A stretch of 50,759 nucleotides of DNA from a virus. The DNA lies in IMG/VR virus record IMGVR_UViG_3300037104_000773, positions 1-50,759 of that record. One strand, 5' to 3'. Every line of letters begins with the position of its first letter. Position 1 is the stretch's first letter. Under the pieces are notes generated by a model. That model ran no database searches and was not told where the DNA came from. It saw only the letters and a list, made by a program, of their open reading frames with translations. A program made the position numbers and the translations under genes. Below, in pieces: positions 3,172 through 38,781 of the stretch.

Positions 3172-3201
3172 TTTTAAAATAAGTGTTCAAATATTTTTTT
3201 A

Positions 3202-3225
3202 TGTCAAAGAAATTGATTATATTTG
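3202..3225 (+). promoter_or_regulatory. Class-1 phage promoter upstream of 3278
   Basis: TGTCA at 3202-3206 and TATATTTG at 3218-3225, 16 bases apart, followed by ACTTG. Nearly identical to the copy at 771-794 although the flanking sequence differs. The leader to the ATG at 3278 is about 50 bases and A-rich. Confidence 0.65.
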
Positions 3226-3277
3226 ACTTGCAATTTAATACAAACTAAAACAGAAAATTAACTAAAACACATTTACA

Positions 3278-3856
3278 ATGAAAGGATTTTTAATTGGACT
3301 TGGCGTATTCGTAGTAATCGCAATCGCCACAATCGTATGGGCAATCGGCCTCAGTAATTCAGAAAGAAAACTCAAACTTCGTGGAGAAGCCCAACAGGTT
3401 GTATGCGAAGCATTCTTCTCAAATATGTGGGAAATTATTCAGTCTAAAGCTGGAGTTGCCACAGAATATAAAAATGGATTTAAAGAAATATACGTTCCTC
3501 TTATCGAAGGAAGATATTCAAAAGGTGATGGAACTTTAATGAAGTGGATTACAGAATCGAACCCACAGTTCGATCCTTCTCTTTATAAAGATTTAATGGT
3601 TGCTATTGAAGGCCAAAGAAATGGCTTCTTCCTTGAACAGACTAAACTCATTGATATCGATAGAGAACACAAGTCAATGCGAGTAACATTCCCGGCTAAT
3701 ATCATATTTGGAAAACGTACTAACATAGGATATAAAGTTGAACCTACCGGCGAAATTATCCATGGAATTATAATTCTTAAGAATCTTGCTACTCAGGATG
3801 CCTATAAAACAGGCATAGATAGTTCACCCGATTTATTTGGTAAAGATAAAAAATAA
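3278..3856 (+). CDS. LemA-like membrane-anchored protein
   Basis: An N-terminal membrane segment (residues about 3-24) is followed by a helical domain with the LemA pattern: SNSERKL, then MWEIIQSKAGVATEYKNGF, EIYVPLIEGRY, LMKWITESNPQFD, and a terminal helix with LIDIDREH and FPANIIFG. Length 192 aa is typical of bacterial LemA proteins, whose biochemical role is uncertain. The N-in, cytoplasm- or periplasm-facing topology cannot be fixed here. It is a monocistronic unit: promoter at 3202, strong terminator at 3894. Likely acquired from a host; a role at the membrane during infection is inference. Confidence 0.8.
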   Translation: MKGFLIGLGVFVVIAIATIVWAIGLSNSERKLKLRGEAQQVVCEAFFSNMWEIIQSKAGVATEYKNGFKEIYVPLIEGRYSKGDGTLMKWITESNPQFDPSLYKDLMVAIEGQRNGFFLEQTKLIDIDREHKSMRVTFPANIIFGKRTNIGYKVEPTGEIIHGIIILKNLATQDAYKTGIDSSPDLFGKDKK

Positions 3857-3980: not shown

Positions 3981-3990
3981 ACATTTTCAT

Positions 3991-4007
3991 GAATATATAA
4001 AATAAAA
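3991..4007 (+). promoter_or_regulatory. Class-2 (late-type) promoter, exact 17-mer
   Basis: GAATATATAAAATAAAA directly before the ATG at 4008. Exact copies occur at 10988-11004 (minus), 11500-11516 and 30678-30694 (minus), each just upstream of a start codon, and looser copies elsewhere. The TATATAAAATA core is close to the T4 late promoter TATAAATA. Confidence 0.6.
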
Positions 4008-4985
4008 ATGCTAACAGAACAATTTAAATGCCAAGAATGTGAAAGAGAATTTAAAAATTTAAATTATTTATCAACACATATTTCTAAAAGTCATAATCCT
4101 AAAGATTACTATGATAAATGGATTAAAAATTCAAATGAAAATAAATGTGTGATATGTGGGAGTGAAACACCTTTCATGTCTATTAAGCAGGGATATAAAG
4201 ATGGGTGTTCCAAAAAATGTATTGATAAAATAAAAATTATTAAGCGTGAAAAAAGTAATTTAGAAAAATATGGAAACAAAAATTATAATAATATAGAAAG
4301 AAGATACAAAACAAATAACATAAAATATGGAGGCAATGCTCCCATGTGTGATAATAAAATTAAAGAAAAAACAGAGCAAACATGTTTAAAAAAATATGGA
4401 GTTACACATATATTTAAATCTGAAAAAATTAAAAACGACATTAAACATACCAATATAAAAAAATATGGCGTTGAAAATCCTTCTCAATCAGAAAAAATTA
4501 AAATAAAAAAAGAAAATACGTGTTTAAAACATTATAATGTTAAAAATCCTAATCAATCACCAGAAATAAAAAATAAAATTAAAAACACAAATATACAACG
4601 TTACGGTGTAGAACATAATATGCAAAATGTTGATACATATAATAAAGGACTGAAAACGAGAAAACTTATTAAACTGTATAAAAATGATTTATATTATCAG
4701 GGTTCATATGAATTCGAATTTTTAGAAAAATATTATGAAAAATATCCTAATATAATACGTGGAAAAACTATTAAATACACGTACAATGATAAAAATAAAG
4801 TATATTTTCCTGATTTTTTTATTCCATCTTTAAATCTTATAATTGAAATTAAAAGTTCTTGGACATTAAAACAAGATATAGAAATTGACGAAAAGAAAAA
4901 AGCAGTATATAAATATGGGTATAATTATATTATGATTTTGGATAAAGATTACACACAATTTAATAATTTAATAAGTAATGAGTAA
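4008..4985 (+). CDS. Homing endonuclease with C2H2 finger, KYGV repeats and PD-(D/E)xK domain
   Basis: Residues 8-29 form a C2H2 finger (CQECEREF...HISKSH) and a second Cys cluster lies at about 47-72 (CVIC...CSKKC). From about 85 to 210 there are repeats of the form T(C/N)xKKYGVxxxxQSxxIK, as in the DUF7487-type repeats of phage homing endonucleases, probably DNA-contacting. The C-terminal domain has a plausible PD-(D/E)xK core: YFPDFFIPS then LIIEIKSSW near residue 280. The gene has its own late-type promoter and its stop overlaps the phosphoesterase start by eight bases. Its position next to an amputated phosphoesterase start supports insertion into that gene. Confidence 0.75.
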   Translation: MLTEQFKCQECEREFKNLNYLSTHISKSHNPKDYYDKWIKNSNENKCVICGSETPFMSIKQGYKDGCSKKCIDKIKIIKREKSNLEKYGNKNYNNIERRYKTNNIKYGGNAPMCDNKIKEKTEQTCLKKYGVTHIFKSEKIKNDIKHTNIKKYGVENPSQSEKIKIKKENTCLKHYNVKNPNQSPEIKNKIKNTNIQRYGVEHNMQNVDTYNKGLKTRKLIKLYKNDLYYQGSYEFEFLEKYYEKYPNIIRGKTIKYTYNDKNKVYFPDFFIPSLNLIIEIKSSWTLKQDIEIDEKKKAVYKYGYNYIMILDKDYTQFNNLISNE

Positions 4986-5733
4986 AATTTTAGTAATTCC
5001 TGACGTACACGGAATTTCTTCATGGAAAGATATGATGAAAGACGTAATGTTTATGCCAGATTCACATATAGTGTTTCTTGGTGACTATGTTGATAGTCGC
5101 GTTACAACAGCATACGAAATCATGGAAAATTTCAATGACATTATTGATCTCAAGAAAAAATATCCTGATAAAGTTACGTTATTGTTAGGTAATCATGATT
5201 ATGCATATCTTTGGAATAAATTTGCAACCACAGGATTCAATCTTGATATGTTGCCAGTTTATCGTTCAATTATTCAAGAAAACTGGAGCTTATTTCAAGT
5301 TGCATGGGGATTTCAAGGAAAAGATAAATACACTCTTTTAACACATGCGGGTTTGACAGGTTGGTTTTACGGAGCTCTTGGAAGGGAAATTAACGATCCT
5401 ACAACTGTAATGCACAAAATTTTGGTTGAAGGCGCTGAAACTCCTTGGAAAGAACTTCCTTTGGCTGAATTACTCAATTACTTCATTGACAATGTAACAC
5501 TAATGTGGAAAATTGGAGTAGTTCGTTGGGGATCAAGTCCTACAGGAAGTATTCTTTGGGCTGACAAAAGCGATCTTACAAAAGATCATTTCCCTGGAAT
5601 TGATCAAATTGTTGGACATACAGCTGGAAGATTCGTAGACATAAGAGATAAGGATGGTGACAAACTGTACTTTACTGATACACATAATGAATTTTATCAA
5701 ACAATGACAGGATTCATGATTGAATTGAAATAA
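4978..5733 (+). CDS. Calcineurin-like metallophosphoesterase (Ser/Thr phosphatase type)
   Basis: All signature blocks of the fold are present: PDVHG (residues 8-12; D9, H11), GDYVDS (35-40), GNHDY (71-75), LTHAG (about 120) and GHTAG near residue 214. The layout resembles the lambda phosphatase/diadenosine tetraphosphatase group. It hydrolyses phosphate esters; the substrate cannot be told from sequence. The start codon lies inside the 3' end of the homing endonuclease, so translation probably depends on read-through or coupling from it. A transcript terminator follows at 5752. Confidence 0.85.
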   Translation: MSKILVIPDVHGISSWKDMMKDVMFMPDSHIVFLGDYVDSRVTTAYEIMENFNDIIDLKKKYPDKVTLLLGNHDYAYLWNKFATTGFNLDMLPVYRSIIQENWSLFQVAWGFQGKDKYTLLTHAGLTGWFYGALGREINDPTTVMHKILVEGAETPWKELPLAELLNYFIDNVTLMWKIGVVRWGSSPTGSILWADKSDLTKDHFPGIDQIVGHTAGRFVDIRDKDGDKLYFTDTHNEFYQTMTGFMIELK

Positions 5734-5780: not shown

Positions 5781-6060
5781 TTAAATAAGGTATACATTGA
5801 CTGATCACAGTACACAATCCTGTGATTCGTATGTTTAAATGTTATCATTTTCAGAAGATTCAATGAATTTTTTAACAGTTTTTTAACAACACTATTATAT
5901 TCAATTTATTATCTCATAATACAGTATTCATCTGTATCTTCTTAGAACATTTAGTTAACGTGTTGTTAAATGCACTAGCCATACATTTGACACTTAGCAT
6001 ACATTATATATAGAATATAGTAAAACCTATGTAAACAAACTAAAAAAACAATTAAAAACT
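5781..6060 (+). other. Non-coding leader of the protease-scaffold gene
   Basis: No open frame of interest. Contains a small hairpin (ATCACAG 5804-5810 with CTGTGAT 5820-5826) and an AT-rich stretch with several TTAAC/GTTAA elements. A possible promoter reads TTTGACA at 5986-5992 followed by TATATATAGAATATAG at 6005-6020; the latter resembles a degenerate class-2 late element. The last 30 bases are A-rich without Shine-Dalgarno. Confidence 0.4.
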
Positions 6061-8508
6061 ATGGCAGGAAAAAATTTATTGATTCTCGAACGTTCAGCTC
6101 AGAATCTTCAAAAGATTACCCGCGACGGAAAAACAATGTTAGAGGGTGTCTTCGCCGAGTTTGGAATTGAAAACCGCAATGGACGTATTTACGAAGAAAA
6201 GGAATATCTTCCTCACTTGGAATATCTAAAGAAAGACATCGCTAACGGCAACTTACTTGGTGAGTTAGATCACCCTGAAAGATTTGAAGTTGCATTAGGC
6301 AGTGTTTCACATAGAATTTCCGAGTTATGGTACGATCAACAGAAAAGACAAGTGTTAGGTCGTATTGAGATTTTGGAAGGTACCCCAAAAGGACAAATTG
6401 CAAAATCATTATTAGACGCAGGAGTTCCTCTTTCAATCTCATCCAGAGCAGCAGGTACTGTTAACGAAGACAAAACTGTTGCAATTCAACAGATTTATAC
6501 TTATGACTTAGTTGCTAAGCCAGGGTTCGAATCAGCTCAATTACACTCAGTTAATGAAAGTGCAAACCCAAGACAAAAAGAAATGGCAGAAATGCTCATA
6601 TCCTTAAATGAAGGTGTTACATCTCGTAAACAACACAGTATCAATTCAAAGTTCGGAAAATTGAATGAAAACATTTCAATTCTTGACTTAACAGACAAAG
6701 TTCCTCTTACATATCATGGCGTTGCCGGAGTACGTGAAGAGGCTTTAGTAGCTCAAGAAGAAGCCAAAAAGGCAAAGCAACAAACAACTAAAATTAATGA
6801 AAATAATCAAATGGCAGAAACAAAACCAGGAGTTATTACTGAAGAAACTGTACAGCAATGGACAGAATTATTCACAAAAGAACTTAGCGCCATTAACACC
6901 AGATTAGACGAAATTCAACAGAGTGGTAGCACTGCTGATCTTACAGCAATCAAAAAGTATATCGAAAAGATACGCAAGATTCAGGAAGATTCATTGAATT
7001 GGCAATCTGAGATCGCTAAGGCTGTAAATGAAGTTGCTACTTACGCTGATACATTAGCAGACAAGAGTAACAAGCATTATAAACTAACGAAAAAGATTGT
7101 TGAAACTGTAGACTACAACGCAAAAACACTCAATGCAACACAAGATTGGACAGGCGAAGTGGCTAAAGTAACAAACGCAATCGGAGAAACTGTAGATCAC
7201 AATGCAGAAATGCTTAATGGTCTTAATGAATGGACAACTCAAATTGCTAAGGGTGTCAATTCACTTAATGAATGGGGTACAGAAAAAGCAAAAGCTATCA
7301 ATGACATGCACGACTGGGTTGGTACTCAGGCAAAAGCTATCAATGGTATGCACGAATGGACCTCTTCAATCGCTAAAAACTTCAACCATTCAGTCAATTG
7401 GACTGAAGAAATGTTAGGAAGAGCTATTTCTAAAGAAGATGCTGTTAACATGATGAAATATGTTGACTTAGTATCAGAATCTAAAGCTGATCCAGAACTA
7501 AAAGCAAAAATCGACGAAATGTTAAAAACTAACTCTATCACCGCAAAACCTCTTAATGAGGCAAATCTTAAAGGCATCGCTGTTATTGACACCGTTGGAA
7601 AAATCGGAAACGTAAAAGTTGCAACCGAAACTTCAAAACCAACAGGCGTAGAATTCGATGACAAAACCAAAACTATCGTAGCTAAAATGAGAAACGTTAA
7701 GCTTGGTAAAGAAAAACAACCAGTTGGTGATGACAAATTACAAATGCCAGCAAATCCAAAACCTGAAAAGGTTGGTGACGATGGCTTAAGCAATGATCCA
7801 AAAGATCTTAAAGCTAACCTTAAAACTTCTAAAGTTATAGGTTCAGCTGATAAAAAAGTATCTGGTGACGGTCCTTCCGCAACAGCTACAAAAAGTCAAA
7901 ATTTAAAATTAAACGTTAAGGCAGGTGGAAAAAACTTGATTAACGACAGCTTAAATAAAACTGAAGACATTCAAGCAAGACGTACAAAACTCGATGAAAA
8001 ACTTTCTTTAATTATCAATGGACTCGAAAAAGAAAAGACTGTTGACGAAAGCGTTAAATCAGAATTTCCATTCACACAACTTTTAAGTAGTGAGGATAGA
8101 AGTAAATTTGCAAATCTTGATGCATCCGATAAACAAAAGGTAGCCACAGAAATTTCTAAAGTTCCAACAACCGATTCTAAAGTAATTGTTAAATTATGGG
8201 AATACGCATTAGCAACTGAAAAAGTTGATGAACCACTTTGGTTCAAACTTGCTCCAAAAGTTTACAAAGAAGCTTATAGCAAAGCTCCTAAAAACGTTCA
8301 GGAAAGTCTTACTGCTAAATCAGAATACTTTACTTTAAATACACAATATCAGATTGACAACTTCTGGGAAACTAGCGATATCATTCCTCGTCCAGTTTAC
8401 ACCTTAAACGAATCTATTGCCGCAGTAACTGGTGAAGAATCAGAACAAAAATACGATAGCGTAGTTGCAGGAGTTGCAGAAGGAATGAAAAGATACGCAA
8501 TTGTTTAA
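6061..8508 (+). CDS. Prohead protease fused to scaffold/core protein (gp21-gp22-like)
   Basis: Residues about 25-165 match the T4 gp21/S80 prohead protease family: ENRNGRIY (37-44), GELDHP (67-72, catalytic His71), VSHRI (82-86), LGRIEIL (99-105), SISSRAAG (125-132, catalytic Ser) and YDLVAKPGF. The remaining 650 residues are Lys/Glu-rich and helical, as in a scaffold. Residues about 310-450 carry a run of repeated W-x-x-x(I/A)AK units (NWQSEIAK, DWTGEVAK, EWTTQIAK, DWVGTQAK, EWTSSIAK). T4-type cleavage sites LNE|G (182-185) and LNE|A (498-501) would release the protease and split the scaffold. T4 encodes protease and scaffold as separate genes. It lies directly before the capsid gene, as in T4. 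Confidence 0.9.
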   Translation: MAGKNLLILERSAQNLQKITRDGKTMLEGVFAEFGIENRNGRIYEEKEYLPHLEYLKKDIANGNLLGELDHPERFEVALGSVSHRISELWYDQQKRQVLGRIEILEGTPKGQIAKSLLDAGVPLSISSRAAGTVNEDKTVAIQQIYTYDLVAKPGFESAQLHSVNESANPRQKEMAEMLISLNEGVTSRKQHSINSKFGKLNENISILDLTDKVPLTYHGVAGVREEALVAQEEAKKAKQQTTKINENNQMAETKPGVITEETVQQWTELFTKELSAINTRLDEIQQSGSTADLTAIKKYIEKIRKIQEDSLNWQSEIAKAVNEVATYADTLADKSNKHYKLTKKIVETVDYNAKTLNATQDWTGEVAKVTNAIGETVDHNAEMLNGLNEWTTQIAKGVNSLNEWGTEKAKAINDMHDWVGTQAKAINGMHEWTSSIAKNFNHSVNWTEEMLGRAISKEDAVNMMKYVDLVSESKADPELKAKIDEMLKTNSITAKPLNEANLKGIAVIDTVGKIGNVKVATETSKPTGVEFDDKTKTIVAKMRNVKLGKEKQPVGDDKLQMPANPKPEKVGDDGLSNDPKDLKANLKTSKVIGSADKKVSGDGPSATATKSQNLKLNVKAGGKNLINDSLNKTEDIQARRTKLDEKLSLIINGLEKEKTVDESVKSEFPFTQLLSSEDRSKFANLDASDKQKVATEISKVPTTDSKVIVKLWEYALATEKVDEPLWFKLAPKVYKEAYSKAPKNVQESLTAKSEYFTLNTQYQIDNFWETSDIIPRPVYTLNESIAAVTGEESEQKYDSVVAGVAEGMKRYAIV

Positions 8509-8592: not shown

Positions 8593-10365
8593 ATGAAACA
8601 ATTAAACGAACAACAGATAGTGGCTAAATGGTCTCCAATGATCGAGTCTACAACAGGTCTTAAAGATCCAAAGAGACTTTCATGGATTTCCAAATATGCA
8701 CACTTTCACGCATTAAACGAAGCTGCAATGGGTGGCGTTAGCGCTCCTTATGCAACTCTTTACAACGTTCCTGGTGTTGGTAATGCAGTTCCTGCTTCTC
8801 AAGCAGCAACAACTGGTAACCAATTCTATCAGGCCGCATCAAAAGGTTCAGGTGACAAATGGCCTGCACTTCTTCCAATGGCACTTCAAGTAGCTGCAAG
8901 AACAATCGGTTTCGACCTTGTTAACGTAGTTCCTATGCCAGGTCCAACAGGTGTGGTATCATACCTTGACTATGTATATGCAGGTGGTAAACAACCTTTC
9001 GGTGCTCAACCAGCAAGTAGCCCATCAACAGCTAACCCAGCATTATTCCAAGGTGCAGCAGCATATAATCAATATGACGCTCCTCACGCATTCAAACTTC
9101 AACTTGATGCATCAGCAGCAGCTTTAGTTGCAGCAGGCACAATCGCAGAAGGTGCAATAGTTTATTTTAACTCATCAATTAACTCATCTGTAGGATCAGC
9201 TGGTTTATCAGCAACTTACATTGGAAAATCAAGAATTGATGGATTTGCAATGTTCAAAACCGGTACTTTTGGCACAACAGGTGATAATTTAGCCGATATT
9301 TTTGATGGTACTGCTAGTTTCTATTCAGGAACTGACACATCATTATATGCCGTAACTAAATTTCCTACACTTATCTCAACACTTGAAGATCAAGTTCAAG
9401 GTTTTGTAGGCGCAGGTCAAACTGACAACGACAATTGGTCAGGTACATTCGTATCAGGCACAACCCTTTACGAACCAATGGAAAGAGGAGTTGGTGAACT
9501 TCAATACCCAAGAGCTTTAGGCCTTCAGGTATTCACCAAATTCGTACAAGTTGGAACATTCCAAGTATCAGTAAGTGTTACCCAAGAGCAAATTCAAGAC
9601 CTTAACAAACAATGGGGTATTGATGTTATCGCTATGGTTGAAAACGCTGGTATCAACGAAATTTCACAAGCTATTAACAAACACATCCTTTCAAGATTAT
9701 TCGGTCTTGGTTGGAAAAATGCTCTTAATGCATTGGCAGTTGAAGGTATCAACCTTAACATGAACTGCACTTCAACAGGTGCTCTTACAACTGCAGCTTA
9801 CGCATATCCTGACGGAGACACAACTTTCTCAACAAAAACAATGGTTATCCCTGGATTCGCAAGTTACGCATCAGTAGTTGGTGCTACCTTCGAAAACCAA
9901 GACACTATGATTAAGAGAGTTATGGCTAACATCCTTGCAGCTGGTAACGTTGTAATGCAAAGAGGTCGTAGAGGCCCAGCAAACTTTATTGTAACAAACA
10001 TTAAACTTGCTACAGCTCTTCAAACAAACAGTGGTTACACATTCTCACCAATCACTAATACATTCACTCAGTCTAACGGTTCATTGTACCCACTCGGAAC
10101 AATCGCTGGAATGACTCTTTATGTAGATCCAAACATGATCTATTCAGACACCAGAGTACTTGTAGGACGTAAAGGTGCAGCAGACGAACCAGGTGTTGTA
10201 TTTTGCCCATATCTTATGGCTGAAAGCGTTAAGCTTATCACTGAAGGTACAGGTGCTCCTAAAGTTATTATCAAAACCAGATACGCTTTAGTAGATGCAG
10301 GTTTCCACCCAGAAACGCAATATATTACTTTATACTTCCAAACAAATAGCGGAGCTGTTATTTAA
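8593..10365 (+). CDS. Major capsid protein, T4 gp23-like
   Basis: 590 aa, close in size to T4 gp23. Matching blocks include LLPMALQVAARTIGFDLVNV and MPGPTGVVSYLDYVYAGG (about 95-135), the QVGTFQVSVSVTQEQI segment and the C-terminal GAPKVIIKTRYALV. A likely maturation site LNE|A lies at residues 41-44, agreeing with the T4 [IL]xE|A rule and with the sites in the scaffold fusion. The codon use is more GC-rich and regular than in neighbours, as expected of a highly expressed gene. An A-rich leader precedes the ATG, with no Shine-Dalgarno. A palindromic terminator follows at 10391. Confidence 0.95.
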   Translation: MKQLNEQQIVAKWSPMIESTTGLKDPKRLSWISKYAHFHALNEAAMGGVSAPYATLYNVPGVGNAVPASQAATTGNQFYQAASKGSGDKWPALLPMALQVAARTIGFDLVNVVPMPGPTGVVSYLDYVYAGGKQPFGAQPASSPSTANPALFQGAAAYNQYDAPHAFKLQLDASAAALVAAGTIAEGAIVYFNSSINSSVGSAGLSATYIGKSRIDGFAMFKTGTFGTTGDNLADIFDGTASFYSGTDTSLYAVTKFPTLISTLEDQVQGFVGAGQTDNDNWSGTFVSGTTLYEPMERGVGELQYPRALGLQVFTKFVQVGTFQVSVSVTQEQIQDLNKQWGIDVIAMVENAGINEISQAINKHILSRLFGLGWKNALNALAVEGINLNMNCTSTGALTTAAYAYPDGDTTFSTKTMVIPGFASYASVVGATFENQDTMIKRVMANILAAGNVVMQRGRRGPANFIVTNIKLATALQTNSGYTFSPITNTFTQSNGSLYPLGTIAGMTLYVDPNMIYSDTRVLVGRKGAADEPGVVFCPYLMAESVKLITEGTGAPKVIIKTRYALVDAGFHPETQYITLYFQTNSGAVI

Positions 10366-10372
10366 TCGTAAC
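10357..10372 (+). repeat. 16-bp direct repeat, copy 1 (end of capsid gene)
   Basis: GTTATTTAATCGTAAC, spanning the last codons and stop of the capsid gene. The identical 16-mer recurs at 11435-11450, and each copy is followed about 20 bases later by a terminator. The two copies bracket the GIY-YIG endonuclease gene. Confidence 0.8.
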
Positions 10373-10390
10373 ATACCAATATTAACATAC

Positions 10391-10420
10391 AAAAAGGAGA
10401 GTCTTAAGACTCTCCTTTTT
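10391..10420. terminator. Palindromic terminator after capsid gene
   Basis: A 30-base perfect palindrome: arms AAAAAGGAGAGTC (10391-10403) and GACTCTCCTTTTT (10408-10420) around TTAA. Works for the capsid transcript and, in reverse, for the minus-strand endonuclease, whose stop codon lies inside it. Confidence 0.85.
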
Positions 10421-10985
10421 TATTTGTAGCTCCTCGAATTTTTCTCATTTGACTAATTTTTTCAATCATTCTATCGTATATTTTTTGGCCTTGTTCTTCT
10501 CCATATTTATCAATTAGTACATCTATTCGTTTTTTTCCCTTTCTATCTTTCATACTATTAATATATTGATCATATTTAATATGGCCTTCAACTTCACCAA
10601 ATCGTTGGATGTAGTAGTACAAATTACTTTTTCCTTGCTTTTTATCCCGAATTTGATCTTTAGATTTTTGTGTATGTTTATATCCTCGAATAGAATGACC
10701 GCCTTCAGTCATATTATAGCCATTATTGAGTGAATCATAAAACTTAATCCAGTAAATTTCTCTATAATCTAAATTAATTTCGTCTACATCTTTTTCAAGT
10801 ATTTTCCATTCAAAATTTTCTTTTCCATATCTTCGCAATGCAGAGTAAAATTGGTTAATATGATTGAAATAAAAAGCGTTTTGAAAATGTTTTCCTTTAC
10901 GATAGGCTAAAGATGTGCAGGTTTGACCCACATATTTCTTGTTATTGATTAAATTTGTAACTAAATAGATGATTCCTAATTTCAT
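10404..10985 (-). CDS. GIY-YIG homing endonuclease
   Basis: N-terminal GIY-YIG nuclease domain: GIIYLVTN (residues 4-11) and KYVGQT (17-22), the conserved R29 region, and Glu in REIYWIKFYDS near residue 75; then GYNMTEGG. The C-terminal part has short basic repeats with the pattern GxxxGxxxYDxxI (RFGEVEGHIKYDQYI, KYGEEQGQKIYDRMI), probably DNA-binding. It runs opposite to the capsid gene and has an exact class-2 promoter at 10988-11004. It lies between two copies of the capsid gene's 3' end. Confidence 0.9.
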   Translation of the reverse strand: MKLGIIYLVTNLINNKKYVGQTCTSLAYRKGKHFQNAFYFNHINQFYSALRRYGKENFEWKILEKDVDEINLDYREIYWIKFYDSLNNGYNMTEGGHSIRGYKHTQKSKDQIRDKKQGKSNLYYYIQRFGEVEGHIKYDQYINSMKDRKGKKRIDVLIDKYGEEQGQKIYDRMIEKISQMRKIRGATNKKGES

Positions 10986-10987
10986 GA

Positions 10988-11004
10988 TTTTATTTTATAT
11001 ATTC
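10988..11004 (-). promoter_or_regulatory. Class-2 (late-type) promoter, exact 17-mer
   Basis: Reads GAATATATAAAATAAAA on the minus strand, two bases before the ATG of the GIY-YIG gene. Late promoters in front of homing-endonuclease genes are known from T4 (I-TevI). Confidence 0.6.
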
Positions 11005-11110
11005 ATCTAAACATCTCAATATATCACTTTGCGTGTTAAAAAATTGTTAATTGGCAAATTGTTCGAAACTATGCGTAAATAAATAAATAAAATATATAGA
11101 ATACAACAAA

Positions 11111-11135
11111 AAGCTTAATCTGTAAAATTAAGCTT
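11111..11135. terminator. Hairpin, probable terminator
   Basis: AAGCTTAAT (11111-11119) pairs with ATTAAGCTT (11127-11135) around CTGTAAA, followed by CTTTA. An AAATTAAGCTTTT echo follows at 11141. Confidence 0.5.
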
Positions 11136-11333
11136 CTTTAAAAATTAAGCTTTTGATTCTGAAAAATCAAAGCCTATTGAAGAATTCAAGTTTACCATAC
11201 AATTGTACGGAAACATTATAGACACTTCAACCGGTATACAAATAGTACTCTCTATAGCCGTTAAATAGAGTCCGGTTTTTGGGTCTGGCCAAAACGACAT
11301 TGGTAAAATATTCATTTTTTAAATGAATTTAAG

Positions 11334-11362
11334 GAAGAGGACTGTGAAGAGTCCTCTTCTTG
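11334..11362 (+). terminator. Hairpin terminator
   Basis: GAAGAGGACT (11334-11343) pairs perfectly with AGTCCTCTTC (11350-11359) around GTGAAG, then TTG. Similar in design to the other phage terminators, but no intact plus-strand gene precedes it. This fits the idea that the gene it served has been lost. Confidence 0.6.
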
Positions 11363-11434
11363 TATTATATATGGTAGCACTTGTTTTTAGTTTTTTAACT
11401 TAATGATAAAAATGTTTTAATTTTTACTAATGCA

Positions 11435-11450
11435 GTTATTTAATCGTAAC
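11435..11450 (+). repeat. 16-bp direct repeat, copy 2
   Basis: GTTATTTAATCGTAAC, identical to the stop-codon region of the capsid gene at 10357-10372, again followed by a terminator after about 20 bases. No capsid coding sequence precedes it here. Confidence 0.8.
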
Positions 11451-11468
11451 TCAAAACCAGATAATACA

Positions 11469-11494
11469 AAAAGAGAGGCAATTGCCTCTCTTTT
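11469..11494. terminator. Palindromic terminator
   Basis: Perfect 26-base palindrome with half-site AAAAGAGAGGCAA and no loop in the duplex. Probably the terminator that originally followed a capsid-type 3' end. It lies six bases before the late promoter of the fibre-like gene and so insulates it. Confidence 0.75.
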
Positions 11495-11499
11495 GTCGT

Positions 11500-11516
11500 G
11501 AATATATAAAATAAAA
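11500..11516 (+). promoter_or_regulatory. Class-2 (late-type) promoter, exact 17-mer
   Basis: GAATATATAAAATAAAA, immediately after the terminator at 11469 and 20 bases before the ATG at 11537. Confidence 0.6.
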
Positions 11517-12183: not shown

Positions 12184-12930
12184 TTAATGTTTGAAATTTC
12201 TATGGTGATGAAATAGTTGTGGATAAGGTGAATTTGGGAATTTATCTTTTTCTTCATTACCCCATTGTGTAGGGTCTCTAAACAATTCAAAATTATATTT
12301 AGTGCATAAGATCGTTAATACTGATTGATCATGACGATGATCTTTAAATTCCATGAAATTAGGTTTGCCTGCCATATTAGGACCATCGGTAACAATTTGT
12401 ACATTTCTTAAATATAATTGCCACTCTTTTAAGAACTCTACATTTTTGTCATTTTTTTCCCAAACTGAAACTGCTCCATTTGTCATAGGCGCATTCCAAT
12501 ATTTGATTTCGTCAGATTGTGTCAAAACAAAACAATCACGTTTCGTCCATATTTTGGCGATATGTTGAGCGCCAACCCAAGGAAGACGAAAAATAACTTT
12601 TCCATCATTTGGATGATTTGAGAGTACTTCAAATAATGGATTAAGGTTATCTATTACAGATATACCCGCATCACTGTAGAGGACTGCATCGCCATTCTCA
12701 AGTGATTCGAAGGTCTTTAATATAATGTACGGCTTATAAATCCAAAAACCTCCTCCACGAGTTTGATCTAAGATATATTTATTTTTTTGATAAAAATCAG
12801 TAGTTATTAGCCAATCTCTAGTGTACACATACACGTTATCAACTTTTCCTATTTCATATGCAGTTTTTTCCAAAAGTTCTAAACTTTTAACGTAATCGGG
12901 TGTTCCATAAGTACAAACAACTTTTATCAT
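12184..12930 (-). CDS. Putative glycosyltransferase, 248 aa
   Basis: Mixed alpha/beta N-terminus (MIKVVCTYGTPDY), then GFWIYKPYIIL, a candidate DxD-type site LYSDAGISV near residue 105, and WTKRDCFVL. The late segment HDQSVLTILC resembles the acceptor-side acidic motif of GT-A enzymes. Family not identified with certainty. Last gene of the minus-strand glycan island. Confidence 0.55.
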   Translation of the reverse strand: MIKVVCTYGTPDYVKSLELLEKTAYEIGKVDNVYVYTRDWLITTDFYQKNKYILDQTRGGGFWIYKPYIILKTFESLENGDAVLYSDAGISVIDNLNPLFEVLSNHPNDGKVIFRLPWVGAQHIAKIWTKRDCFVLTQSDEIKYWNAPMTNGAVSVWEKNDKNVEFLKEWQLYLRNVQIVTDGPNMAGKPNFMEFKDHRHDQSVLTILCTKYNFELFRDPTQWGNEEKDKFPNSPYPQLFHHHRNFKH

Positions 12931-13499
12931 ACAGCTTTAAATTTATATAAACATAATTCGCCATGAAATCTTGTATACACATTTTTATAAATCATTTTAT
13001 GGCAGTATATGCATTTAATCATAGATTCTTTCATTTTATTTATAATTTTTTCTTTTGATTCACAAGTATGATAATTATTATACATTGGATGTTTATCTTT
13101 AATTCTTCCATAACAAGGGTTGTTTTCTCCAGAATTATTAATTATCATTTTTTGTCTAGTTTCTTGTGTTATAGGTGTTTTACTCATTAATTCCCTAGCA
13201 TACAAATAATCTCTAGACGTTAAAATTAATTTTCCTTTTTTATTATATGTCATTCTATGAAATGCGCATGTAATTTTTCTATTTCCTTTGTATATGTACG
13301 TTAATAACTTATGACAAACAAAATGTTCTCTTGCTGTTAATAAAACTTTATTATGTTCTTTATCACTACCTTCTAAACATTTAGGAATTACATGATGATT
13401 TTCATAATAAACATAATCAACATTATCTTTTCTTAACTTTATTCTATTTTCAGCTTTTGCTTTTTCTATTATATTATCATATATTTTTTGATGATTCAT
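12927..13499 (-). CDS. HNH homing endonuclease
   Basis: Begins MNHQKIYDNIIEKAK. The HNH core reads NHHVIPKCLEGSD then EHNKVLLTAREHFVCHKLL (residues about 34-66). A NUMOD3-like stretch and a C-terminal C2H2-type finger follow (CIYCHKMI...RFHGELC). Overlaps the genes on both sides by exactly four bases, so it slots between epimerase and glycosyltransferase without breaking either. Close paralogues lie at 48710 and 50030 on the other strand. Confidence 0.9.
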   Translation of the reverse strand: MNHQKIYDNIIEKAKAENRIKLRKDNVDYVYYENHHVIPKCLEGSDKEHNKVLLTAREHFVCHKLLTYIYKGNRKITCAFHRMTYNKKGKLILTSRDYLYARELMSKTPITQETRQKMIINNSGENNPCYGRIKDKHPMYNNYHTCESKEKIINKMKESMIKCIYCHKMIYKNVYTRFHGELCLYKFKAV

Positions 13500-15403: not shown

Positions 15404-16162
15404 TTATTTATTAGTGATTTTATTTATGATATCTTCTTCCCAAGCAGCGTGTTTGTATGGACTTCCATCATGAATTATGTTATTTATTTTTTTAATAGGC
15501 ATGCCTAAAGAAACTAAATAAAATCCCCACATTCTTTCAACCAAACCACAAGTTCTATGACCAATTAATCCCCATCGTTTATTGCTTATCATATCTTCGA
15601 TATCTTCGTGATTATTTATTAAAAAAATTCCAAATTTTTCATAAACATCTATCGGCGCGATAACCATCGCATGACTAATCCATCCAATATTCCAAATATT
15701 TTCTGCATTAATGAATAATTTTAATTTTGAAGACATATATATACAGATTTGATTAAGTTGTTCTTTAGACATATATAAACTTCTTTTATCAGTTATAAAA
15801 TGAATATTTTTAATCTGTCGAGGATTAGATAATAAATTTGTTCGTATATCATTTATCGAATTTTTCTGAAAAAACGTATCAAAATGTAATAAACCAATAT
15901 GTGTTAAACCCGTTGTTAATTCTTTATTTTTTAATATATGAGGAATCAAACTATATTCATAATACTGAAAATCTTGATATTTTGAATCATGCCATGGCAA
16001 ATCCCATTCATTTATATTTTTAATCTTATTTGTGATATTTTTTTCATACTTTTCATTAACTGAATAACAACAAACGCATTCTTGTTCATCAGGTGATAGA
16101 TTATCTATAACACTATCTCTACATTCATTGTATGACACAATATAAAAACGTAAATTAACCAT
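15404..16162 (-). CDS. Putative glycosyltransferase, DUF4422-like pattern
   Basis: QYYEYSLIPHIL followed by LTHIGLLHFDTFF resembles the DUF4422/capsular GT pattern in which a Tyr-rich helix precedes GxxHYRRYF. The C-terminal third has GLVERMWGFYLVSLG, where those proteins have an ER-rich helix. The canonical Arg pair is absent, so the relation is tentative. 252 aa. Just upstream (in transcription) lies one copy of a 34-bp repeat. Confidence 0.5.
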   Translation of the reverse strand: MVNLRFYIVSYNECRDSVIDNLSPDEQECVCCYSVNEKYEKNITNKIKNINEWDLPWHDSKYQDFQYYEYSLIPHILKNKELTTGLTHIGLLHFDTFFQKNSINDIRTNLLSNPRQIKNIHFITDKRSLYMSKEQLNQICIYMSSKLKLFINAENIWNIGWISHAMVIAPIDVYEKFGIFLINNHEDIEDMISNKRWGLIGHRTCGLVERMWGFYLVSLGMPIKKINNIIHDGSPYKHAAWEEDIINKITNK

Positions 16163-16169
16163 ATTTTTA

Positions 16170-16203
16170 TTTTCTTAAATCTTGCCTATCTATAACTCTT
16201 CTA
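16170..16203. repeat. 34-bp direct repeat, copy 1
   Basis: Identical over 34 bases to 16927-16960. The second copy is the true 3' end of the GT25 gene, coding RRVIDRQDLRKQ and stop on the minus strand; this copy is a displaced duplicate. The two bracket the 16209-16919 gene exactly. Confidence 0.85.
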
Positions 16204-16208
16204 CATAA

Positions 16209-16919
16209 TTATTTTATTAAGATCCAATTTAATTTAAATTTAGGATTATGACTACTATTATATGTTACAACATACAAGTGCATAAAAAGTTTGTTTGTTT
16301 TTATCTGCATAGTATCTATCATGCATGAAAAAGAACTATCCATACAATGAACTTCTTTTGCATTTTCAATAGTGTATATAAAATCAAAAATTCCTACTTC
16401 TTTAAATTCTGAAGGATGAATTAATTTTATCCCAGGCGTAATATATGATGGTTTTATATGTCTTCCACTTAATGGATCGTCATGTACAAAAAAATATTCT
16501 TCTCCATCTTTTAATTTAAGAATATTATAAAATGCGTATTTTTCTTTTTTAATATTACGTTGAAAATAAAATTTGTTCCATTTATCTTCAATAGGAATTT
16601 TTGTCATTTCATAAAATCCTTCATCAAATGTTTTATATTCTTTTGAAAGATCTAATTTTCTTAAATATTCAGGAGTTATGCCAGCAATCAAATAATTATT
16701 CGAAGGATTAAATTTCATAAATGATTTAACCTGTGTATCATCCATTTGAATAAATTTAACATTCAATAAATCTCGATACATATAGGTCACATTATCGAAA
16801 TTATGAGGCTTAACAAACAAATATATTTTATTATATTTTTCTGCGTATATTCTTACAATAGCATTACATATAATATGATCGCCTAATCCTAAATGATGAT
16901 ATATGTAAATTTCTTTCAT
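16209..16919 (-). CDS. GT9-like (GT-B) glycosyltransferase, inserted gene
   Basis: HHLGLGDHIICNAIVR at the N-terminus is the glycine-rich loop of heptosyltransferase-like GT-B enzymes, and VHCMDSSFSCMIDTM near residue 195 is the donor-site helix region. 236 aa, shorter than bacterial heptosyltransferases (about 320-350), so the C-terminal domain is reduced. It is the only gene in the island flanked by a long direct repeat (16170, 16927), which marks it as a late arrival. AT-richer than its GT25 neighbour. Confidence 0.6.
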   Translation of the reverse strand: MKEIYIYHHLGLGDHIICNAIVRIYAEKYNKIYLFVKPHNFDNVTYMYRDLLNVKFIQMDDTQVKSFMKFNPSNNYLIAGITPEYLRKLDLSKEYKTFDEGFYEMTKIPIEDKWNKFYFQRNIKKEKYAFYNILKLKDGEEYFFVHDDPLSGRHIKPSYITPGIKLIHPSEFKEVGIFDFIYTIENAKEVHCMDSSFSCMIDTMQIKTNKLFMHLYVVTYNSSHNPKFKLNWILIK

Positions 16920-16920
16920 A

Positions 16921-17619
16921 TCATTGTTTTCTTAAATCTTGCCTATCTATAACTCTTCTATCTAATTCTGAAAAATCAGTTATTTGAAATGCCGATTTTG
17001 GGAGATACATGTATGCTCTTAACGGATTTTCTTCTCTGAACATAATATCATTAATTGCATCATCATTTGTAGTTTTAAATGAAAACATTGCATCGGCAAT
17101 TTTATCAAATCCTGTGCCTTTAACTAAATACGCGTGTAACCCATCAGTAAAACTTGTAGTATATAAGTGATCAGTTACTTTTTGCATTGTCTTCTGACCT
17201 ATATTTCTAACAGCGCCTCCGAGATAAATATGTTCCCAATCTAATCCTCGTGTTTCTGCTTCAACATTTCCTAATACTTCCTGAATATTTTCTGTAAATT
17301 CAATATCATCTTCAACAAATAATGCAGATTGTGCACCTAACATTTTTGCAAATTTCATAGCTGCAATATGAGAAATAGTGCATCCTACTTGAAATCGATT
17401 TAATTTATTAGTCGGAAATCGTGTTAGTTCATCTTTAAAAGAAAAATATGATCTATGTGGTGGGACTATTGATACGATGTTGGGTGTTATTTTTCCACCA
17501 TCAAATGCTGGAAGATAATAAACATTTTTAAATCCTCTATCGGCAAGGTGTTGTTCTAATCGAACTCTTCTATCTTTTCTTCTTTCTAAGCTTATCGCTA
17601 TTACAATATCATATATCAT
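16921..17619 (-). CDS. Glycosyltransferase family 25
   Basis: Typical GT25/LOS-type pattern: ISLERRKDRRVRLEQHL (9-25), FQVGCTISHIAAMKF (76-90) and the acidic motif FVEDDIEF (101-108), with YLGGAVRN and HAYLVKGTGF downstream. Transfers hexoses such as galactose in lipooligosaccharide or collagen-type glycosylation. Its 3' end carries one copy of the 34-bp repeat. Confidence 0.85.
   Translation of the reverse strand: MIYDIVIAISLERRKDRRVRLEQHLADRGFKNVYYLPAFDGGKITPNIVSIVPPHRSYFSFKDELTRFPTNKLNRFQVGCTISHIAAMKFAKMLGAQSALFVEDDIEFTENIQEVLGNVEAETRGLDWEHIYLGGAVRNIGQKTMQKVTDHLYTTSFTDGLHAYLVKGTGFDKIADAMFSFKTTNDDAINDIMFREENPLRAYMYLPKSAFQITDFSELDRRVIDRQDLRKQ
16927..16960. repeat. 34-bp direct repeat, copy 2 (3' end of GT25 gene)
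   Basis: Lies within the last codons of the GT25 gene. Same 34 bases as 16170-16203 in the same orientation. Confidence 0.85.
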
Positions 17620-19690: not shown

Positions 19691-20548
19691 TTATTTTTTT
19701 ATTTTATCAATTAGCCATGTTTCGAATCCCATAAGATTCATTTCTAAATCTTGTTTTTGTTCCGGAGTAAATGCCGGTCGCGTATAATACTGATTGAAAT
19801 ATTCCCAATTTTTATCGATTCTTTTAATCTCGTCCATCCATCCCATATACTTCATCACATTTATAAATGAATCTGGATTCCAATCTCGTGATACTTTAGG
19901 GTCTCCAAGATATATTGGCATTGCGCCCACAAGAAATGCATCCATTAACTTTTCAGTACAATAGTATGGATATTGCGTATTTTCATACACTAACATGAAT
20001 TTATGCGGATTGGCCAAAAAGAATGAATCTTTTGCGTCTCTCCAATATTTTCCTTTTGTGTAATTTTGAAGAACAAAATCATTTGTCAATACTTTTCCGT
20101 ATGATGAAACTTTCTTATACTGGTTGAGTTGTTGATACGCAGCAATTCTCATTACGTTTGAAGGATTCGAAACTGTAAATGCTCCCCATCGTACAAACTG
20201 ATCTTCATTATAGTTAAGTCTATTATAAAGACGATTTTTTAGATTAGGCCATAACAGCATATACATCTGCCACAACGGAAGTCTAAAATTTGTTTCACTA
20301 TGAGGATCGAATGAAATACTATAGTCTGATTTGAATTGTGATGGACGCCAATTTTCGGCAAGTATTAAAACTTTTTTACACTTATAATTCGGTGTTTCGC
20401 TCATTTTATTAAAAATGGAATGAAACATAACATCTGGTTTATCTCTATCTGAAACAACTTCAAAATGCTTGTTTAAAATCGGTGTTATAAAATCTTCTAT
20501 ATTCCATTCGGGCCAGAAATCCCCGAACCATATTTTTAATTTGTCCAT
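19691..20548 (-). CDS. GT10 fucosyltransferase-like protein
   Basis: The C-terminal signature of alpha-1,3-fucosyltransferases is present: KFMLVYENTQYPYYCTEKL then DAFLVGAMPIYLGDP and FINV (about 185-230). The N-terminal half has IWFGDFWPEWN and VMFHSIF, as in bacterial GT10 acceptor domains. 285 aa. Would transfer fucose or a similar 6-deoxysugar. Confidence 0.85.
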   Translation of the reverse strand: MDKLKIWFGDFWPEWNIEDFITPILNKHFEVVSDRDKPDVMFHSIFNKMSETPNYKCKKVLILAENWRPSQFKSDYSISFDPHSETNFRLPLWQMYMLLWPNLKNRLYNRLNYNEDQFVRWGAFTVSNPSNVMRIAAYQQLNQYKKVSSYGKVLTNDFVLQNYTKGKYWRDAKDSFFLANPHKFMLVYENTQYPYYCTEKLMDAFLVGAMPIYLGDPKVSRDWNPDSFINVMKYMGWMDEIKRIDKNWEYFNQYYTRPAFTPEQKQDLEMNLMGFETWLIDKIKK

Positions 20549-20553
20549 TTATT

Positions 20554-20838
20554 TTAAAATTGTGAGTGTAACGTATTTCCATTTTCATCAACAGTTTTTA
20601 TACCGTAAGTGATAGGTCCTTTGGTGTGATCTATTACAACAGTTGGCATTGGAATTCCTTTTGCATCGAATTGTTCTTTTATATGTAACCACATTTTTTT
20701 CTGTTGTTCATCCCAATCTGCAACATCTTGAGGATTGCCTGGATCGAATCCCTTGATATCTTGGGCTATAGTTCGGGCATTTACATTTTTAACAATTGGA
20801 AATTGCATACCTTCGAATGTTTGTTTCTTCTTTCTCAT
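20554..20838 (-). CDS. Hypothetical protein, 94 aa
   Basis: Start chosen at the ATG whose A is the last base of the upstream TAA (TAATG); a longer frame exists but would overlap more. Basic start MRKKKQTFEGMQF, then DWDEQQKKMWLHIKEQ, and a terminal PITYGIKTVDENGN. No family recognised. Confidence 0.5.
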   Translation of the reverse strand: MRKKKQTFEGMQFPIVKNVNARTIAQDIKGFDPGNPQDVADWDEQQKKMWLHIKEQFDAKGIPMPTVVIDHTKGPITYGIKTVDENGNTLHSQF

Positions 20839-21194
20839 TATTTTGATTCTATAAAGCAATCTGAACAAGCTTCACCATATACATTTTCAATTATTTTGAT
20901 TAATGCATTTTGTTGAGGCTTTGTTAAATTGGTGTTTGACAAAAACAAATCAATTTTTTCGGCAAGATTTTCAGAAAGATCAAGAATTACATATGAATTC
21001 TCTATAACTTCTTTGTTAGCAATTTCGCCAAACCAATAAGGTTTTCGCGGGGTTTTTGATGCTTTTTCTACTTTTAAATTTTTCATATTACTAAAATTTG
21101 TTTCGTTTTTTAAAATGTTTTTTATAAATGCACTGCAATTACAATTTATCTTATAATTTCCGCATATTAGGCAAATTGGATCTCCTGTGCTCAT
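20838..21194 (-). CDS. Hypothetical Cys-rich protein, 118 aa
   Basis: N-terminal CLICGNYKINCNC is a compact zinc-knuckle-like cluster, and a second pair CSDC lies near the C-terminus (GEACSDCF), so the ends may share a metal. The middle is helical and charged. Coupled to the next gene through TAATG. Function unknown. Confidence 0.5.
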   Translation of the reverse strand: MSTGDPICLICGNYKINCNCSAFIKNILKNETNFSNMKNLKVEKASKTPRKPYWFGEIANKEVIENSYVILDLSENLAEKIDLFLSNTNLTKPQQNALIKIIENVYGEACSDCFIESK

Positions 21195-21388
21195 TATTTC
21201 TCTTCTTTAGGTACAACAATCCACATAACTATGTATACAAGTGTAAATGGAATTATAACTGAAAATAAAGCTCCAAAAAAGAAAATTAATCTCCATATTG
21301 TTGGATCCATTCCGAAATGTTTTGCGAGGCCGGCACATACGCCGCCTAAAACAATCCCTTTTCTACTTCTTCTTAAAAATTTTGTCAT
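21194..21388 (-). CDS. PspC-domain small membrane protein
   Basis: 64 aa comprising a single PspC domain: RSRKGIVLGGVCAGLAKHFGMDPTIWRL followed by a hydrophobic segment of about 20 residues (FGALFSVIIPFTLVYIVMWIV) and a charged end. In bacteria PspC senses membrane stress. A phage copy may guard the inner membrane during infection; this is inference. Confidence 0.88.
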   Translation of the reverse strand: MTKFLRRSRKGIVLGGVCAGLAKHFGMDPTIWRLIFFFGALFSVIIPFTLVYIVMWIVVPKEEK

Positions 21389-21398
21389 TTTATTTTAT

Positions 21399-21842
21399 TT
21401 ATTCGAGTTTTAAAGGCTGCTGATCAATGAATGCATCTGTGTCTCTTGGAACAACATCAAATGAAATAATTTTATAATCTGTTACTTCTTTATTTTCATT
21501 AATTTGGCCAATTCCTCGTGATCTTATAACATAGTATTTATCGAAATTTGCTATATCATTATGAATTAAATCTAAAAGCTTTTCACCATTAGGTGTATCA
21601 AGAATTTCAATTGTCCCTTCTATAGCGTGTGTTTCGGCATTTACATGAATTTCTTTAACTTCATGAGATGCATCACCTAAATTTCCTTTAAAATTATCGG
21701 CATCAGGATATCCTAATTGTCCAAAGGTTGGATGATCTAATTCACCAAATTGTTTTACAATATCTTCTGCACACTCTTTTGTGTACATTCGACCATTACG
21801 ATTTTCTACATCATAATACAGAAATTTTCCTTTTAGTTTCAT
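21399..21842 (-). CDS. Second prohead-protease-family protein (gp21-like paralogue)
   Basis: A standalone 147-aa relative of the protease domain at 6061. It keeps ENRNGRMY (13-20), GELDHP (33-38, His), ASHEVKEI, IEGTIEIL, and SFDVVPRD. The catalytic block reads VIRSRGIG where the fused protease has SISSRAAG, so the first of the paired serines is Arg and only the second remains. It may be an active second protease or a regulatory, non-cleaving copy. It sits in the minus-strand cluster with the second capsid paralogue (23414). Confidence 0.8.
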   Translation of the reverse strand: MKLKGKFLYYDVENRNGRMYTKECAEDIVKQFGELDHPTFGQLGYPDADNFKGNLGDASHEVKEIHVNAETHAIEGTIEILDTPNGEKLLDLIHNDIANFDKYYVIRSRGIGQINENKEVTDYKIISFDVVPRDTDAFIDQQPLKLE

Positions 21843-30677: not shown

Positions 30678-30694
30678 TTTTATTTTATATATTC
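30678..30694 (-). promoter_or_regulatory. Class-2 (late-type) promoter, exact 17-mer
   Basis: GAATATATAAAATAAAA on the minus strand, 10 bases before the ATG of the acidic core gene. A plus-strand copy at 30710 points the other way, giving back-to-back divergent promoters. Confidence 0.6.
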
Positions 30695-30709
30695 AAGCTT
30701 TTTTGTTCT

Positions 30710-38019: not shown

Positions 38020-38781
38020 ATGAAAGGCTTAATTTATTGCGCAATTTCTCCATCATATAAAAAATATTATGGACAAACAATATCGTTTACACATAGAAAA
38101 ATAACACATAAAAGAAGTATAAAAAATGGTGATAAATCTAGATTTTATGATGCTATAAGAAAATATAGTTTTGATGAATTTACATGGACTATTATTGAAG
38201 AATTTGATTTTTTTGAAAAAATAGATTTAAAATTAAAATTAGACGAACGAGAAACTTATTGGATCGAAAAAGATAAAACATATCTCTCAGAATTTGGATA
38301 TAATATGACACATGGAGGTGCGGGTAGAGTAGGCGTAAAATTATCTAAAGAACATATAGAAATACTTAGAAAAGCAAATACTGGAGAAGGAAACGGTAAT
38401 TTTGGAAAAATATATACTATTGAAGAAAGTGAATATTTGAGAAATTTGTATAAAGGAAAAACATATGAAGAATTATATGGATTAGAAAAAGCAAATATAA
38501 TGAAAAACAAATTAATTAAAAATATTGAAATAAAAAAAGAATTAGGCACGTATATTCCTCCAATGACAGGAAAACAACAAACAAAAGAATCAAATATTAA
38601 ACGCCGTAAAAAATTAAAAGGAAGAGATCCGTGGAATAAAGGAAAATATCTTAATAATATTACGGGAAAATATGAAATAGTTAATGTTATTAAAGGAAAT
38701 AGAAGACTCTCACCAAATTCTGTTTATATGCAGGATAATTCAAAAGAAACAGTTACAAATAAATCAAAATCATTATTTTAA
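38020..38781 (+). CDS. GIY-YIG homing endonuclease carrying a methyltransferase-like C-terminus
   Basis: GLIYCAIS and KKYYGQT (15-21) give the GIY-YIG core, with Glu in RETYWIEKDK near 78 and GYNMTHGG. Middle part has NUMOD-like repeats and DPWNKGKYLN. The last 24 residues (SVYMQDN, K, then NKSKSLF) match the last 24 of the upstream methyltransferase (SVLMQDN, K, NKAKKLF) in position and content. It starts three bases after the methyltransferase stop. This is the expected outcome if the endonuclease arrived near the 3' end of the methyltransferase gene. Confidence 0.85.
   Translation: MKGLIYCAISPSYKKYYGQTISFTHRKITHKRSIKNGDKSRFYDAIRKYSFDEFTWTIIEEFDFFEKIDLKLKLDERETYWIEKDKTYLSEFGYNMTHGGAGRVGVKLSKEHIEILRKANTGEGNGNFGKIYTIEESEYLRNLYKGKTYEELYGLEKANIMKNKLIKNIEIKKELGTYIPPMTGKQQTKESNIKRRKKLKGRDPWNKGKYLNNITGKYEIVNVIKGNRRLSPNSVYMQDNSKETVTNKSKSLF

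Follow-up and report, generated by a model that had tools for sequence, protein, structure and literature searches.

A displaced gene end beside a glycosyltransferase gene in the glycan island of a T4-like phage, a likely scar of one-sided recombination

Downstream of a GT25 glycosyltransferase gene in an uncultured phage, a second, predicted glycosyltransferase gene is bracketed by two identical copies of a 34-base sequence, one of which is the coding end of the GT25 gene itself and the other of which stands untranslated before the next gene. We favour, at a probability of about 0.6, the reading that this repeat is the scar of a one-sided, break-repair-type recombination event that joined GT25 to the glycosyltransferase while keeping the junction between the GT25 end and the gene behind it, gene 15404.

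The DNA analysed here, henceforth the window, is the 50,759-nucleotide stretch comprising positions 1-50,759 of the metagenomic IMG/VR virus record IMGVR_UViG_3300037104_000773. Judged by its gene content it is a T4-like phage, since it encodes the gp23 major capsid protein (PF07068, E 2.9e-38), the closest named relatives of that capsid protein are those of Prevotella Lak phages (47%), and one relative record is 405 kb long. Among INPHARED phages there were no near-DNA matches. The glycan island sits behind gp23. The window contains six homing nuclease genes, one of which, a NUMOD3 homing endonuclease gene (12927-13499, minus strand), shares the glycan island with the GT25 repeat and lies about 3 kb downstream; its homolog in locus L014 also stands before a homolog of gene 12184. 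Elsewhere in the window, gene 24411-25658 matches the T4 DNA alpha-glucosyltransferase (PF11440, E 2e-8), and the phage may therefore glucosylate its DNA. An 18-mer, TGAATATATAAAATAAAA, occurs identically at 3990-4007 and 11499-11516 on the plus strand and at 10988-11005 and 30678-30695 on the minus strand, upstream of several gene starts; near copies are present in relatives, and it is possibly a late promoter motif. A 37-base repeat at 761-797, 3192-3228 and 34094-34130 terminates in TTATATTTGACT and resembles a Bacteroidetes-type promoter.

The 34-base repeat and its neighbouring genes

Because the genes at the repeat are all on the minus strand, they read in the order GT25 (17619-16921; PF01755, E 6.1e-9), the bracketed gene (16919-16209), the displaced copy of the repeat (16203-16170), gene 15404 (16162-15404) and gene 14832 (15392-14832). 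The original prediction, that 34 identical bases at 16170-16203 and 16927-16960 bracket the gene at 16209-16919, with the right copy being the coding end of GT25 and the left a displaced GT25 end, holds in each of these respects. All 34 positions match. The attached copy (16927-16960) falls within the last 40 bases of GT25, where it supplies the codons for ...RRVIDRQDLRK, and the displaced copy (16170-16203) lies wholly inside the non-coding 46-base gap between 16208 and 16163. The repeat ends two codons before the GT25 terminus, so that the attached copy continues from ...RK into Q-stop; the displaced copy reads ...RK-stop (TAA). Each copy ends 7 bases before the next ATG, which is that of the bracketed gene in one case and that of 15404 in the other. 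Joining the two copies in silico, with excision of the DNA between them, yields an intact GT25 gene ending in ...RK-stop and standing directly before 15404.

No exact repeat in the 50,759 bases of the window is longer than this 34-mer. The next longest measures 24 bases, and the maximum reached in 40 order-3 Markov simulations was 20. With their flanks, the two copies are 90% identical over 51 bases (16160-16210 and 16917-16967), and a weak similarity, AATTA..TAGAAGAG, lies just outside the repeat on both sides. Rather than being a common element, as had been considered, the sequence was seen outside the window only at the 3' ends of GT25 orthologs, both in the loci that we fetched and when the IMG/VR collection was scanned with a degenerate pattern.

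The bracketed gene encodes a protein of 236 amino acids that is predicted to be a GT-B type glycosyltransferase with a fold nearest to the GT9/heptosyltransferases. In structure searches with its AlphaFold2 model (pLDDT 81, pTM 0.78), the best PDB matches were the GT9 protein 3tov (Foldseek E 2.6e-5, VIA Z 11.4) and E. coli WaaF (1psw, Z 11.1), followed by TibC and WaaC. The protein had no match in Pfam or PHROG, and a PDB sequence-profile search returned unconvincing matches only; because there is no sequence-profile family match, we name it GT9-like rather than GT9. We found no nuclease domain in the bracketed protein and no nuclease gene within the repeat-bracketed segment.

Gene 15404 (252 amino acids) belongs to an unassigned family of phage glycan islands, with homologs at 39-44% identity in 12 other loci; a structure model of its product (pLDDT 43) was unusable. 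The gene preceding these homologs varies among loci, and in seven fetched loci (L055, L058/L059, L060/L061, L063 and L064) a homolog of 14832, at 49-57% identity, follows directly behind. We therefore regard 15404 and 14832, the latter of which has no match in Pfam or PHROG, as a pair that travels together.

GT25 in related phages

Orthologs of GT25 are present in L001 (78%), L002 (71%), L014 (70%), L003 (52%) and L048/L051 (44%). The six phages, counting that of the window, have six different genes next to GT25, and in every one of them this next gene starts at the GT25 stop or within a few bases of it. None of the other five carries a displaced GT25 end, making the two-repeat layout private to the window rather than an arrangement that all relatives share. 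As to the modular acquisition of glycan genes that the original prediction proposed, the six different next genes and the private layout bear it out as gain or loss. Its further element, in which the glycosyltransferase gene is the invader, is not established by them: with two identical copies, the order of events at GT25 cannot be read, and arrival of the 15404-14832 module with a GT25 end from its donor fits too. Either order requires that in some allele a GT25 end stood directly before 15404, and this we consider a firm inference.

The expectation that GT25 would be followed directly by 15404 in relatives was borne out only loosely. No close ortholog of GT25 was found in this arrangement. 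In L049, a 15404 homolog (41%) has its start overlapped by a distant GT25-family gene (26% amino acid identity), and a few genes beyond this pair there is also a homolog of the bracketed gene; given that each island holds about a dozen genes, such adjacency could be due to chance. We also looked at a mosaic breakpoint within GT25, between an L002-like 5' part and an L001-like 3' part, which was only suggestive (permutation p 0.06). The island of another relative, L042, contains tandem duplicated glycosyltransferase-like genes (20471-21127 and 21145-21663).

The same layout around nuclease genes

The original prediction likened the repeat to a pattern around the endonuclease genes of this genome. 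Self-comparison of the window for the layout gene end, insert, displaced gene end revealed further scars, and the likeness is demonstrated for two nuclease genes, one behind a methylase gene and one behind gp23, for both of which relatives have uninterrupted sites. In the first case, a cytosine DNA methylase gene (36806-38017, plus strand; PF00145, E 5.8e-19) retains an attached 3' end and is followed by a GIY-YIG/NUMOD3 endonuclease gene (38020-38781, plus strand) whose last 35 codons are the displaced methylase 3' end (38674-38781), so that the C-terminus of this nuclease is not nuclease sequence. The displaced and attached ends are 51% identical in amino acids. At the uninterrupted site of L066/L067, the methylase gene is directly followed by a gene matching the one behind the nuclease here, with the same TAATG stop/start overlap at the junction. 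Relative to the uninterrupted L066 gene, the displaced end agrees at 26 of 35 amino acids (74%; 77% of nucleotides) and the attached end at 21 of 35 (60%; 70% of nucleotides). These methylase relatives came from a record search, a pattern search of viral contigs having returned none.

In the second case, a GIY-YIG homing endonuclease gene (10404-10985, minus strand) is inserted behind gp23 (8593-10365), and the displaced native gp23 3' end, together with a terminator hairpin, lies about 1.1 kb from gp23 (11432-11497, plus strand). This block aligns with the natural gp23 flanks of L038 and L002 at scores of 83 and 62, respectively, compared with a shuffled maximum of 27 and a score of only 27 against the window's own attached gp23 flank. 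The gene behind the block has a start homologous to that of the gene directly after gp23 in L038. It appears that the homing nuclease exchanged the 3' flank of gp23 together with its terminator (10366-11497), displacing the native flank. In both cases these comparisons mark the displaced copy as native; the attached copy most simply came with the nuclease. The gp23 case is the stronger of the two, as the methylase differences are few in number.

A further GIY-YIG/NUMOD3 endonuclease gene (33298-33942, minus strand) is bracketed by a 56-base repeat (33245-33300 and 33974-34029, 91% identical), which is probably an RNA-like element showing the same layout. By eye the repeat contains three small hairpins; the left copy, into which the stop codon of the nuclease gene falls, is enclosed by a 9-base stem (GAATGATAC/GTATCATTC) and has a tRNA-like outline, and neither Rfam nor ARAGORN recognised a family in the repeat. 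All told, DNA-cutting selfish genes have left the same kind of scar at two or three further sites of this genome. In L050, a counterpart of this scar involves a 5' end: a repeat at 5418-5458 and 6060-6100 brackets a GIY-YIG/NUMOD3 gene and takes in the start codon of the gene behind it together with its leader.

Across about 50 loci scanned, GT25 is the sole case without a nuclease that has clear support. Four further candidates were rejected: a 20-mer in L042 reflects tandem paralogs, a repeat in L044 belongs to a paralog pair, a 17/18 match in L058 is by our estimate near chance, and a repeat pair in L048/L051 lies inside two methyltransferase-like genes.

Origin of the GT25 scar

We propose that a GT25 end was once joined directly to 15404, which travels with 14832. 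In the ancestry of the phage, a DNA end at or near the GT25 end would have used as its template a homologous GT25 end followed by the glycosyltransferase gene, and the newly made strand would then have been linked to the old GT25 end, still standing before 15404, at a junction of little or no homology. This would give a GT25 gene with a complete end, a new gene, and the old end left as the untranslated leader of 15404. The glycosyltransferase, and not 15404, would be the newcomer in this sequence of events; the event would have started from a double-strand break, possibly made from afar by one of the six homing nucleases; and the second junction may have formed at a microhomology, with which the AATTA..TAGAAGAG similarity is compatible. 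Several observations weigh against this account: no close GT25 ortholog was found running directly into 15404, the two copies are identical, GT25 has no significant mosaic breakpoint, the bracketed segment contains no nuclease gene, and among the roughly 50 scanned loci GT25 is the one well-supported case without a nuclease.

The identical copies equally allow the reverse order, in which GT25 and the bracketed gene were already adjacent and the 15404-14832 module was inserted later from a donor with a near-identical GT25 end. That 15404 and 14832 form a mobile pair behind many different genes speaks for this order, which we nevertheless consider rather improbable, because the methylase and gp23 cases, whose order is legible, both have the native end in the displaced position, as does a fungal precedent (PMC3630166). 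A leftover of a second GT25 copy, produced by a duplication flanking the glycosyltransferase gene and subsequent deletion of all but the last ~34-41 bases, would be in keeping with the tandem glycosyltransferase paralogs that such islands contain (as in L042) and with the displaced copy being in frame with the stop of the bracketed gene, as a truncated gene could be. This history is less economical and we judge it unlikely: it calls for an additional duplication plus a deletion whose endpoint falls right at the bracketed gene's stop codon, and no phage was found with two adjacent close GT25 copies.

Selection could instead have kept or copied the displaced sequence as a functional element (a leader, promoter or terminator) that is no scar at all. 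The displaced copy does give 15404 an A-rich leader, 7 bases ahead of its start, and within this copy lies TATAGATA, which we take to resemble the T4 late -10 element. However, promoter-like matches around the displaced copy were not in excess (21 versus 21.4 in shuffles), no terminator was found there, predicted RNA structure was absent (z -0.06), and the sequence, which was seen before no other gene start, is nothing more than the code for the GT25 C-terminus; we regard such a function as very unlikely to be what the repeat records. A single gene with an exact direct repeat on either side could also suggest a site-specific recombinase cassette or a transposon, with the 34 bases as attachment or target site. 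In agreement with the earlier description of the cargo as lacking a recombinase, neither a recombinase nor a transposase was present among the scanned island genes, the bracketed segment does not end in inverted repeats, and the repeat is gene-end coding sequence confined to GT25 orthologs, which leaves this explanation with next to no credibility. Nor do we give appreciable weight to an artefact of assembly: the window comes from a metagenomic collection and not from an isolate, yet assemblers tend to collapse repeats, not to invent a displaced copy, and here the flanks of the two copies differ and neither neighbouring gene is damaged.

One-sided recombination, the reading that we prefer, has precedents. 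In fungal mitochondria, mobile endonuclease ORFs come with a foreign C-terminus, and the native C-terminus is displaced, as described for Allomyces atp6 and for Glomus atp6, atp9, cox2 and nad3 (PMC3630166). The likeness lies in the order of host-gene end, insert and displaced end, with the host gene complete. The methylase and gp23 cases match these ORFs closely, with the displaced end being native; at GT25, by contrast, the insert is a glycosyltransferase gene rather than an endonuclease gene, and the two ends are identical (34/34) rather than diverged. In T4, one-sided illegitimate double-strand-break repair combines homology on one side with a microhomology junction on the other (Parker et al. 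1999, reviewed in PMC2988022). The sites at which free-standing nucleases cleave are hundreds to thousands of bases removed from the genes that encode them (PMC2988022). The proposed GT25 event shares the one-sided homology, the microhomology on the other side and the possibility of distant cuts; the T4 process has been described for introns and nuclease genes, whereas the break at GT25 is one that we infer. Homing-endonuclease islands have also been placed at boundaries of phage gene exchange (PMC10448857), which is reminiscent of the six homing nuclease genes in 50 kb here, one of them in the glycan island, although what is described there is boundaries and the turnover of HEGs rather than cargo flanked by displaced gene ends.

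What is already known, then, is that gene ends are displaced around mobile nuclease genes, outside phages; here the cargo is not a nuclease. Our literature search, which was of partial coverage, found no description of displaced gene ends in phages or around a glycosyltransferase gene. The PeSL promoter/stem-loop cassettes of T4-like phages, reportedly described by Arbiol in 2010 and Comeau in 2014, are similar in that short repeats around one or a few genes permit shuffling. They differ in that the GT25 repeat is coding sequence without a promoter or hairpin. A PeSL-like arrangement does occur in L047, where an 88-base promoter-like repeat (3778-3856 and 4957-5044) surrounds two genes.

The 34-base repeat could let the bracketed gene be lost again, and an excised or pre-insertion allele would read from GT25 ...AAGAAAA straight into TAAAAATATGG of 15404. 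Since nuclease genes have left the same kind of scar in this genome, break repair of this type may also be how ordinary cargo genes move. Only tentatively, and as something we would not expect to hold, can this be extended to gene acquisition in this phage group generally, with genes being acquired behind other genes by break repair that duplicates 3' ends, nucleases and cargo sharing the route, cargo entering at breaks cut in trans, and the repeats leaving the cargo excisable.

The entry of single genes into tightly packed phage operons with their neighbours intact has mostly been inferred afterwards, from mosaics. A fresh scar with both junctions visible, in a genome that has the same scar around homing nucleases, offers a concrete and testable route, in which copying beyond a gene end followed by rejoining keeps both neighbours whole. 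If true, this would link the spread of phage surface-glycan genes to homing nucleases.
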